Of a DNA stretch of 36,584 bases, positions 781-7,364 are shown in pieces. Position numbers and translations under genes: made by a program. The notes under the pieces were generated by a model, which was given only the letters and a program-made list of their open reading frames with translations, was not told the origin of the DNA and made no database searches. This DNA is from Myxococcales bacterium (GTDB taxonomy: Bacteria > Myxococcota_A > UBA9042): positions 1 to 36,584 of the forward strand of contig JAGSHB010000048.1 in the NCBI GenBank assembly GCA_023954815.1, in the 5' to 3' direction. The stretch's first letter is position 1. The number at the start of each line of letters is the position of its first letter.

Positions 781-955
781 CCGGTGCCTTGCCAGACGTC
801 GCCGCCCCGCGTACACCGCCACAGCTTCCCAGGCCGTGTTGGCTTGGTGAGGCAAAGGAGGAACCCGGTGAAATTCCGGGGCTGACGCGCAACCGTAAGC
901 TGTCGCCGCACCAACCTGCGGCGCCGGCAAGTCGGGAACTCCTTGGGTGGCTGCC
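781..955 (+). promoter_or_regulatory. Cobalamin riboswitch-like leader
   Basis: The block GAACCCGGTG at 861-870, followed by a pairing CCGG, GCTGACGCGCAACCGTAAG at 881-899 and a GCCGC/GCGGC hairpin at about 905-922, matches the conserved core of cobalamin riboswitches. The E. coli btuB leader has nearly the same GCTGACGCGCA..GGTAAG core. AGTCGGGAACTCC at 930-942 is an imperfect match to the 3' B12 box. The arm between core and B12 box is short. Upstream GGTGCC at 783-788 would be the usual 5' strand of the core. The element reads on the plus strand and ends about 130 nt before the ATG of the lipoprotein gene at 1087. A small hairpin at 1050-1064 (CTCGC/GCGAG) lies 10 nt before the Shine-Dalgarno and could be the expression platform; that part is inference. 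The outer boundaries are approximate. Confidence 0.85.
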
Positions 956-1086
956 CTCGCGAACTGGGGCCCGACTCGTGCTGATCACCTGCAGTTTTGC
1001 GGGCGATTGGACCGTCCATCCAAGTTGCTCCAGCGGTTGCCAAATACGTCTCGCCTATCGCGAGTGATGGAACCAGGAGCCTTGCC

Positions 1087-2115
1087 ATGAACCCCATGAT
1101 GTTTTCTCGCCTGCGGGCGGCCGCTCTCGTCGGATTGTTGACCTGTTTTACGGTCGGCTGCGGCGCCGATGACGGCACAGACGACAGCAATGCTGGCACC
1201 ACGACTGACGGCGGAGTGTCCAGCGATGGTTCCGCCAGTGACGGAACCGTCGAGGACGCGGGCGGCCAGGACGCGGGCGGGCAAGACGCCGGTTCGACAG
1301 ACACTGAAGGTGCCTCCGGTGACGACGCTGCGAGCGATGATGCAGCGCAGACCACTGGCGACGCCGGCACAACCGATGGCGGTAGCGTCGATGCAGGAGC
1401 CCCGGCCAAGCGGCCCTTCACAGCTCACAAGATCGCCATCGCGGGTGTGTGGGAGAGCAGCTTCGGCGGCAATGAGATCATCGACGACACAGCCTGGGCG
1501 ACGCCCTACGGCGCAGCCAAAATCGTCAAGACGGATAACACCAAGCGCGTCGTGTTCACCCAGAACGCCAAGGACGACAAGTATAACCCCAGCAAGTTCA
1601 ACAAGGTCGTCTGGACCGCGCCGAGCAAGGAGACCAAGGATGGCTTTGAGGTCACCACCATCTACCAGTGCACGGTCGCCTTTGGCCTAGACTCGTTGGC
1701 GCTGGCCGAGCAGAACACTCAAACGGCGGACGACTCGGACCCGGCGAAGAGCGGCTGTGGCAAGTTCCCATGGACCAAGCTGAGTGCTTTGGAAACGGCT
1801 GGCGAGTGGCAGACCAACTTCAAGACCAGCGAGACCATCAACCGGCAGGCGTGGGGCTTTGCTTGGGTGCGTGGATTCGAAAACGGCAAGAACGTGGCCT
1901 ACACCCAGAATCCAGCAGACGCGAAGTACAGCCCAAACAAGTGGAACAAGCTCGTGTGGACCACCCCCAAGGGCGGAAAGTGGCACTACTGCACAGTCGA
2001 TTTTGGGCTCGATAGCTTGAAAGCCGCGCAGGAAAGCAAGAAGACCGCGGACAGCTCCGATCCCGCAAAGAGCGGCTGTGGCGGCTTTAGCTGGACAGAG
2101 ATGAGCGCGAAGTAG
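1087..2115 (+). CDS. Twin-domain surface lipoprotein of unknown function, downstream of the cobalamin riboswitch
   Basis: A 342-residue predicted lipoprotein. The ATG at 1087 is chosen because AGGAG lies at 1075-1079; an ATG at 997 in frame has no such site and would spoil the signal peptide. The signal peptide ends in a lipobox-like TVGC with Cys25. Residues 26-117 are an Asp/Gly/Ser/Thr-rich spacer. Two homologous domains follow, about 118-233 and 235-342. Shared positions are AG-W---F, E-I---AW, a TQN block, KY-P-K-NK-VWT, CTV-FGLDSL and SDPAKSGCG-F-WT. Each domain has two cysteines in matching places, which suggests one disulphide per domain. I recognise no named family. The riboswitch suggests a role linked to corrinoid capture or use at the cell surface; this is inference. 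Its 3' end overlaps the convergent MATE gene by 29 bases. Confidence 0.85.
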   Translation: MNPMMFSRLRAAALVGLLTCFTVGCGADDGTDDSNAGTTTDGGVSSDGSASDGTVEDAGGQDAGGQDAGSTDTEGASGDDAASDDAAQTTGDAGTTDGGSVDAGAPAKRPFTAHKIAIAGVWESSFGGNEIIDDTAWATPYGAAKIVKTDNTKRVVFTQNAKDDKYNPSKFNKVVWTAPSKETKDGFEVTTIYQCTVAFGLDSLALAEQNTQTADDSDPAKSGCGKFPWTKLSALETAGEWQTNFKTSETINRQAWGFAWVRGFENGKNVAYTQNPADAKYSPNKWNKLVWTTPKGGKWHYCTVDFGLDSLKAAQESKKTADSSDPAKSGCGGFSWTEMSAK

Positions 2116-5597: not shown

Positions 5598-7364
5598 ATG
5601 GCCATGCATGACACCGTAGAGACCCCAGAATCCGTCGAGACGGCACAGACCGCGCCCCATCTGCCCCTCGCTATCTTCTCGCTGGCCGGCGACCAGGTGC
5701 AGATGGGCGCCCAACACGGCGCGCTCCTGCGGGCTGTCGGCGGGTGGCAACGCACGTTGGATTACTACCCACGCATGGTCGAGTCCATCGTCATTGGCCA
5801 GCGTAGCCATCCGGCCCAGGCGGCGTTGCCGTTGGCGCTGCGGCCGGTGGTCGGCCTAGCGTTGGACCGCCTCCATAAGCGTCGCGATCCATTCTTTCGT
5901 GCGCGCACGGAGGCGTTTTACGAGGCCCTTGGTGTGCCGAAAAATCAGGCGAAGTACATCGGCGTGATGGATGTGCTGCAAAACGTCATCGGCCTCGCCG
6001 GGCGTGTTGGTGTGGGCGATATCAGCGAGCGGGCCATGGAGATCGCGCCAGCAGCCTGTTCAACGCTGGCTGTTTGGGGAGACGCGACCGAAGACGGGCG
6101 ACTGCTCCACGCTCGCAACTTCGACTTTCCGGGTGCGGGCGTGTGGGAGCAGGCGCCCAGCGTCGTGTTTTGCACGCCAAAGAGCGGCCTACGCTATGGG
6201 TTTGTGACCACACGCGGCGCAGACGTGCCGGCGGTGAGCGTGTTCAATGAAGCGGGGCTGTGCCTGACGATCCATACGCGGTTTCATAAGGATATCAATT
6301 TCAGCGGAAACCTCGCGGTAGACATCTGCCATCGCGTCGCGCTCCACGCTCGGACGCTAGCCGACGCCGTACAGCTGCTGAAGGAGACCGATAGCGCATC
6401 TAGCTGGGGTATTTTGGTCTCTCATGACCGTTCGGCGGCGTTGGTCGAGATGACTGCGGGGCAGTTCGCGGTGACCTATCCCGATACGGACCAACCGTGG
6501 CTGAGCTGCACCAATCGCTACATGGCCCCCCATCTGCAAGGCGGAGAGTTGGAGCCAAGCGCTGGATTCCTGATGCACAGTGATGGTCGATGGGCAGCGC
6601 TCGAACGCCGGGCCCAGGCCGCAGTGGCCCAAAATCCGCTGTCGATTGAACATCTACAATCGCTGCTCGGCGACCACGGCGACCACGGCGAGGAGGGCCC
6701 AGGGAGCCGCGCATCTGGCGGTATCTTGGCGCAGTGCAATGGCGTGCATTCGGTGGTCATCGATCCCGAGCGGCAGACCGTCGATGTCTCCGTCGGTGAG
6801 GTCCCCACCGGACACGGGCCCTATGTGCGCATTCCATGGCGTTGGCAGGACTCACCAGGTGTCGAATCCATGGATCTAGGACAGATCCGCACGCAGCACA
6901 CGCCGACCCAGCGCCATAGAAATGGCCGTGTAGGCCAAGCGTACCAGCAGTTTCTGACGGCAGCTCGCATCGAGATGCACGCGGGCCATGCGACAGATGC
7001 CGAAGTCGCTGTGGAACAAGCCTGTGCGTTGGACCCGAAAGAGTCTTCATATCGGCTACTGCTGGCGGGCTACCGACTGCGGCGGCGCGATCCAGCGGGA
7101 GCACTAGCCCACTTGACGAAGGCGCTCACGACGGAATACGCACCCTTTTACCGTGCACGATTGCTGCTGTGGGCCAGTCGTGCAGCTGAGTTGACAGGCA
7201 ACGCGGTGCAGGCCCAAACCCTGCGCGCCGAGCTGCTGGCCCTTCGACACAGTCACATTGGTCGCTATCAAAGCGCGGCACAGAAAGAGTCACAGTCCCC
7301 GCTGCCTGGTCGGCGGCTATTTCGCACCCGCATTCAAGTGCAGCTCTGTGATCTGGCGGCGTAG
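5598..7364 (+). CDS. C45-family autoproteolytic hydrolase/acyltransferase with a TPR-like tail
   Basis: A 588-residue Ntn-hydrolase. The core motif is PAACSTLAVWGDATEDG followed by LLHARNFDF, as in the penicillin acyltransferase-like C45 peptidases. These cut themselves before a Cys and use it as the N-terminal nucleophile; here that is Cys154. The start is the ATG at 5598 with GAGGAGG nine bases upstream. There is no signal peptide, so it is probably cytosolic. Residues about 450-570 are Ala/Leu-rich helical repeats that resemble TPRs, an addition to the usual family length of about 350. Members cleave or form amide bonds in acyl-amino acids or beta-lactam-like substrates; the substrate here is open. 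It is co-transcribed with the TetR gene in front. Confidence 0.82.
   Translation: MAMHDTVETPESVETAQTAPHLPLAIFSLAGDQVQMGAQHGALLRAVGGWQRTLDYYPRMVESIVIGQRSHPAQAALPLALRPVVGLALDRLHKRRDPFFRARTEAFYEALGVPKNQAKYIGVMDVLQNVIGLAGRVGVGDISERAMEIAPAACSTLAVWGDATEDGRLLHARNFDFPGAGVWEQAPSVVFCTPKSGLRYGFVTTRGADVPAVSVFNEAGLCLTIHTRFHKDINFSGNLAVDICHRVALHARTLADAVQLLKETDSASSWGILVSHDRSAALVEMTAGQFAVTYPDTDQPWLSCTNRYMAPHLQGGELEPSAGFLMHSDGRWAALERRAQAAVAQNPLSIEHLQSLLGDHGDHGEEGPGSRASGGILAQCNGVHSVVIDPERQTVDVSVGEVPTGHGPYVRIPWRWQDSPGVESMDLGQIRTQHTPTQRHRNGRVGQAYQQFLTAARIEMHAGHATDAEVAVEQACALDPKESSYRLLLAGYRLRRRDPAGALAHLTKALTTEYAPFYRARLLLWASRAAELTGNAVQAQTLRAELLALRHSHIGRYQSAAQKESQSPLPGRRLFRTRIQVQLCDLAA

Follow-up and report, generated by a model that had tools for sequence, protein, structure and literature searches.

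The gene at 1087-2115 of the DNA stretch under study (36,584 nucleotides, contig JAGSHB010000048.1 of a Myxococcales bacterium; referred to as the window) probably encodes a cobalamin-repressed lipoprotein that captures corrinoids, and it would represent one half of an undescribed cassette of two lipoproteins. Its product carries two copies of a small domain, termed barrel here; the second lipoprotein is designated V. Together, barrel and V are strong candidates for a pair of proteins, not described before, that catches vitamin B12. The gene probably belongs to a corrinoid uptake regulon with control of the OFF type. At high intracellular cobalamin, the riboswitch at 814-960 would shut the gene off, its ribosome-binding site probably becoming hidden. 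Under cobalamin scarcity, a lipidated and exported protein would be made, in which a flexible acidic linker carries two small barrels. Barrels and V would bind cobamides outside the cell, and the bound cobamides would be handed over to a BtuB-like TonB receptor that is encoded together with a periplasmic binding protein.

A role in corrinoid capture or handling had been proposed in an earlier note on this DNA, and it is supported here as the best reading, with cobamide binding as its presumed step. The riboswitch is not, as was then thought, the only functional clue: partner V, replacement of the barrel by DUF4465, a receptor operon and undetected CobQ provide further ones.

Riboswitch and leader

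The cobalamin riboswitch aptamer is located at 814-960 on the plus strand, where cmscan aligns the full RF00174 model (positions 1-189) with 49.7 bits (E 1.2e-9), above the gathering score of 31.5. The riboswitch core that the earlier note had recognised by eye, and had proposed to score with covariance models, is therefore real and covers the whole model, but the coordinates given for it (781-955) have to be corrected to 814-960. It is the sole above-cut-off RF00174 match found in the 6.44 Mb genome, in which 150 of 368 candidates were scored. A second match is weak (26 bits, contig C130, locus L010), and no B12-like gene was found behind it.

Thirteen leaders, drawn from the 17 domain-carrying genomes of the window's family, have 35 aptamer positions in common without variation. 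Of the 26 pairs predicted by RNAalifold across these leaders, 14 show two-sided compensation at least once, several pairs being broken in some rows.

The remaining part of the leader (961-1086, plus strand) is a putative expression platform, as judged from ViennaRNA folds. In the predicted fold, the AGGAG Shine-Dalgarno sequence at 1075-1079 is base-paired to a CUCC located upstream. Since no terminator-like site was found in 640-1150 and this pairing is available to the Shine-Dalgarno sequence, control of the gene by the riboswitch is probably translational.

Lipoprotein gene and its surroundings

The gene reads from ATG at 1087, which is preceded at a distance of seven bases by AGGAG, to a stop codon ending at 2115 on the plus strand, and it encodes a predicted lipoprotein of 342 amino acids. 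A putative signal peptide, read from the sequence, extends to Cys25 of a lipobox-like motif (FTVGC; 1087-1161) and is followed by an acidic low-complexity linker rich in Asp, Ser and Gly (1162-1422). Linker-like stretches give weak matches to other proteins of the same genome. A match of the linker to CobT was stray and weak (E 0.12) and was set aside. The two barrel copies occupy 1438-1785 (supported by the domain alignment) and 1798-2106 (supported by an AlphaFold model of 1786-2112), both on the plus strand and each with 136 bits in hmmsearch. Two domain copies with one Cys pair each had been noticed before and are borne out, the domain measuring about 105 residues.

Lipidation and export of the product are predicted from the motif. 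By a rough rule, a lipobox-like motif is present in 69 of 74 ORFs containing the domain (the window's ORF included, one contig counted twice), and four of the five ORFs in which it is missing are cut or broken on their 5' side.

The gene is indeed the only one behind the riboswitch, as had been stated. Upstream, dapF (TIGR00652) lies on the minus strand; downstream, a MATE/DinF gene is convergent with 1087-2115, with a 29-base overlap at its 3' end. Elsewhere in the window, 5598-7364 encodes a 588-aa protein with TPR-like stretches and a weak match to PF03417 (acyl-CoA:6-aminopenicillanic acid acyltransferase), just below the cut-off.

Barrel domain

The claim that the lipoprotein belongs to no known family stands as far as Pfam is concerned, in which the window protein has no match at E 0.1, but the domain proves to be distant kin of NCBIfam NF047669, the LIC13354 family exoprotein of Leptospira. 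With 59.5 bits against a cut-off of 130, the window protein contains a related domain and is not a member of that family. NF047669 is matched by 49 of 53 barrel domains at E 0.01 (best 3.3e-13) and is the only named family found for the barrel. Searches of the barrel by sequence found no relative of solved structure, no match in plasmids or phages and, for the barrel domains, no match to an enzyme family. Membership in DUF4465 (PF14717) was rejected, as neither the window protein, the 53 domains nor the own genome gave a match. PF24230 and PF17276, each weakly matched by one barrel domain, were set aside.

Two cysteines, one glycine and one tryptophan are invariant in the 53 aligned barrel domains, and the cysteines are probably linked by a disulfide. 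Barrel copy 2 (1786-2112, eight rows) was modelled by AlphaFold with pLDDT 90.4 and pTM 0.83; its predicted fold is all-beta with one short helix. A model of both domains together was too weak for use (pLDDT 69.2, pTM 0.55).

A structure search, as had been suggested in the earlier note, was possible with the model of copy 2, yet its matches are only weak and point to no particular role. With Foldseek, nothing matched at E 0.001. The best of the weak matches are Tp0751 (5jk2; Z 8.2), the lipocalin-like Bacteroides proteins 4iab, 4i95 and 4gzv (Z 7.0-7.2) and avidins (Z about 6); values of Z near 8 are often obtained with models that have no true relative. All of these are small beta barrels, as is predicted for the domain; searches revealed no sequence similarity between them and the barrel, and what they share is at most architecture. 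The lipocalin/avidin-like likeness thus indicates at most a fold class. The top match, Tp0751, is not known as a B12 protein.

Association of barrels with riboswitches

Homologues of the barrel, which the earlier note had proposed to check for cobalamin riboswitches, lie mostly behind them. Barrel domains are carried by 46 of 89 related genomes, and cobalamin riboswitches are detected at E 0.01 in 85 of the 89. When rows within one gene are merged, 54 barrel places result. In 44 of these, the matched stretch is preceded at a distance of 185-915 nt by a same-strand riboswitch, whereas chance alone would account for about 0.01 of 54 (5.3 Mb per genome assumed); 39 of the 44 riboswitches score above and five below the gathering score. 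A riboswitch-linked barrel copy is present in 44 of the 46 carrier genomes. As to the two others, the gene is cut inside the domain in G039, and the contig ends at the aptamer-core copy in G019. Eight of the ten barrel genes without riboswitch are further copies in genomes that also have a riboswitch-linked copy; one of the eight starts near a contig end, which leaves seven second copies.

Forty further loci from 35 genera were chosen with earlier results in view and are not a random sample. Loci 1-20 represent one per genus, taken roughly by score, with at least one genome (G205) passed over; loci 21-40 were chosen by hand. Duplicates occur among the loci, L042 and L120 being the same contig, and likewise L011 and L040. 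A riboswitch above the gathering score is present in 31 of the 40, always upstream and on the same strand. Two of the nine loci without riboswitch have only 144 and 630 nt of upstream DNA. In the other seven, upstream DNA is ample and no riboswitch was found even at E 0.1. Because these seven loci and the seven second copies mentioned above lack a riboswitch, not all barrel copies are in the cobalamin regulon.

In a broader sample, the barrel domain is present in 117 of 377 genomes of the phylum, which is taken to be Myxococcota. Number of copies per protein varies: one, two and three copies are found in 42, 27 and 5 of 74 ORFs, respectively.

Several loci show peculiarities of their own. L032 and L167, which are the same locus, contain tandem barrel genes with the sole riboswitch between them, so that only the second gene is behind it. 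In the homologue at L041:1486-1815, the domain is interrupted by an in-frame TAG, which probably means a broken copy or else an assembly error. In L024, L026, L030, L112 (family f18) and L041, tRNA genes and the small SRP RNA adjoin the riboswitch gene.

Partner lipoprotein V

V, also predicted to be a lipoprotein, contains a domain of about 200 residues. Its gene directly adjoins the barrel gene in many relatives outside the window's genus, and the two genes often overlap by a few bases. V is carried by 64 of the 89 genomes, and none of the 46 barrel carriers lacks it (P 7e-11, kinship ignored). Out of 64 strong V places, 32 are within 500 nt of a same-strand barrel gene, two are beside DUF4465 and 30 are by neither; a cobalamin riboswitch lies at most 3.5 kb upstream in 46 of the 64, and 14 of the 30 have a riboswitch of their own. 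Among the 40 further loci, a same-strand V is present in 22: it accompanies 21 of the 31 barrels with riboswitch and is absent at all seven loci whose ample upstream DNA contains no riboswitch. Barrel and V share one open frame in G190. In G035 and G060, V and DUF4465 are neighbours or form one open frame; the single open frame, seen in L075, may be a fusion or reflect a missing stop.

In the window's genus, V is located away from the barrel gene. The V of the own genome is a lipoprotein gene at C250:49795-50340, flanked by oligopeptide-transporter-like and enoyl-CoA-hydratase-like genes (named by eye). No riboswitch was found at this gene in the RF00174 search of the genome (150 of 368 candidates scored).

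The only named family found for V is NF033170, the LIC_13355 family lipoprotein of Leptospira, which is matched by 32 of 35 V rows at E 0.01 (best 6.4e-47). Among 177,635 distinct PDB sequences, the V profile matches 7biz (BtuH2) best, with E of only 0.37, and neither a subset V profile nor a single V sequence gave a match in the PDB. V may be related to BtuH2, which we take as a lead and not as a test.

Counterparts in Leptospira

The nearest named families of barrel and V are thus LIC13354 and LIC13355, which have consecutive locus tags (PMC5348505); therefore, the pair probably exists in Leptospira too and spans two phyla. Some reports speak against a role in B12 capture. According to PMC3953431, LIC13354 and LIC13355 are up in host-adapted cells (3.77- and 3.72-fold in one data set), btuB is not up, and the two cobalamin riboswitches reported for Leptospira sit elsewhere than at these genes. 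LIC_13355 is described as a binder of laminin and plasminogen on the basis of refolded recombinant protein, in a paper whose main text does not contain the words "B12" and "cobalamin" (PMC11891782). In open-licence PMC papers, we found no description of the barrel-V pair as B12-related.

It is a tentative proposal, made with less confidence than the capture role of the window gene, that Myxococcota and Leptospira share a corrinoid trap of two lipoproteins. It would be composed of a new cobamide-binding small barrel (LIC13354-like, one to three copies) and of V (LIC13355-like), which would be distantly related to the B12-binding domain of BtuH, and DUF4465 could replace the barrel beside V. If this is true, the Leptospira pair, an exoprotein of unknown role and a supposed host-matrix binder, would be corrinoid scavengers. 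For these two Leptospira families, whose role is unknown or disputed, gene context gives a functional lead. Microbial communities are shaped by cobamide traffic, and capture lipoproteins have been characterised mainly in gut Bacteroidetes in the literature cited here. The present analysis names a candidate pair in Myxococcota, where the barrel domain occurs in 117 of 377 sampled genomes and 87 of 89 relatives are without detected CobQ.

B12 physiology of the source genome

CobQ, used as a proxy, has no match in the own genome (assembly 97% complete). It was found in two of the 89 genomes, neither of which is a barrel carrier, and was not detected in the remaining 87. The own genome has 13 above-cut-off matches to the B12-binding domain PF02310. 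A tight cluster on the minus strand (L188:1881-6231, contig C294 of genome G000) encodes a TonB receptor, a lipoprotein looking like a propeller by eye but having no Pfam match, and a Peripla_BP_2 protein (1.6e-29). The receptor is 52% identical to a riboswitch-controlled receptor of a congener; no riboswitch is detectable near the own one. NCBIfam assigns it 64 bits as B12 receptor versus 70 bits as siderophore receptor, both far below the cut-off. B12-binding proteins, the receptor cluster and undetected CobQ fit an organism that needs and takes up B12.

DUF4465 and known capture systems

DUF4465 occurs in seven of the 89 genomes and is absent from the 46 barrel carriers (P 0.005, kinship ignored); the seven matches include one fragment of 24 positions and one match cut at a contig start. 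In five of the seven genomes, DUF4465 is behind a riboswitch. DUF4465 proteins are reported to bind B12 (PMC13398666). As DUF4465 binds B12 and never shares a genome with the barrel among the 89, the barrel fills its slot. DUF4465/BtuJ (PF14717) resembles the barrel in being exported, in lying behind cobalamin riboswitches and in standing beside V in two genomes. It differs in structure, being an augmented beta jelly roll of 176 positions according to PMC13398666 versus about 105 residues in one to three copies, and homology between the two is not detectable (no PF14717 match).

BtuG and BtuH of Bacteroidetes are lipoproteins from riboswitch loci that aid cobamide uptake by TonB receptors; BtuG is described as a beta-propeller, and BtuH2 as comprising Ig-like domains and a globular B12-binding domain (PMC8941943). 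A sequence link between these proteins and the barrel was not found.

Alternative explanations

The strongest rival to capture by the barrel is that the barrel is a B12-repressed helper that binds no cobamide itself, either as a partner of V or the receptor, one of which would do the binding, or as a vesicle-release factor. Its model is BtuL of Bacteroides, a cobamide-operon lipoprotein reported not to bind cobalamin and to promote vesicle release (PMC12751083); by this analogy, a riboswitch-controlled lipoprotein need not bind B12, which speaks against a capture role. Moreover, V is more widespread than the barrel (64 versus 46 of 89 genomes), it stands behind riboswitches without the barrel (14 of the 30 places by neither barrel nor DUF4465), and the hint of BtuH2 (E 0.37) falls on V. 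However, it is the barrel that takes the place of B12-binding DUF4465 beside V, and its one to three tandem copies fit a ligand-binding role; we consider a non-binding helper improbable. Genes for B12-independent functions can also stand behind cobalamin riboswitches, and ribonucleotide reductases and thioesterases follow riboswitches in some relatives. Accordingly, a B12-repressed barrel could replace a B12-dependent step, or could bind heme, a metal or a lower-ligand base. Lipobox, linker and small barrels without any enzyme-family match argue against such a protein, as do the B12-binding proteins retained in the genome and the TonB receptors that form the largest share of other riboswitch genes examined, and its probability is low.

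Lowest of all is the probability of a general surface or adhesion role, with the riboswitch acquired by chance in the lineage. Barrel copies without riboswitch do exist, and LIC_13355, namesake of the V-related family, binds laminin and plasminogen according to PMC11891782. The distribution nevertheless makes this unlikely: the link to the riboswitch is kept in all carriers but those with the cut gene and the contig end, and the riboswitch-less further loci with ample upstream DNA are never accompanied by V, which stands beside two thirds of those with riboswitch. Capture of corrinoids by barrel and V remains the preferred reading.

Other genes behind cobalamin riboswitches

Genes at 25 other riboswitch loci encode 14 TonB receptors, two ribonucleotide reductases, two thioesterases, two DUF4465 lipoproteins, one V alone and four proteins without clear family. 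In the window's family, other riboswitch loci (15 in number) have a TonB receptor in 10 of 10 genes scanned. In L043, L047, L058 and L070, riboswitches precede proteins without an above-cut-off Pfam family, several of them lipoprotein-like; these are possible further corrinoid-handling families. Finally, a cobalamin riboswitch precedes a 4HBT thioesterase in two genera of one family (L055:1735-2301 and L065:1756-2283).
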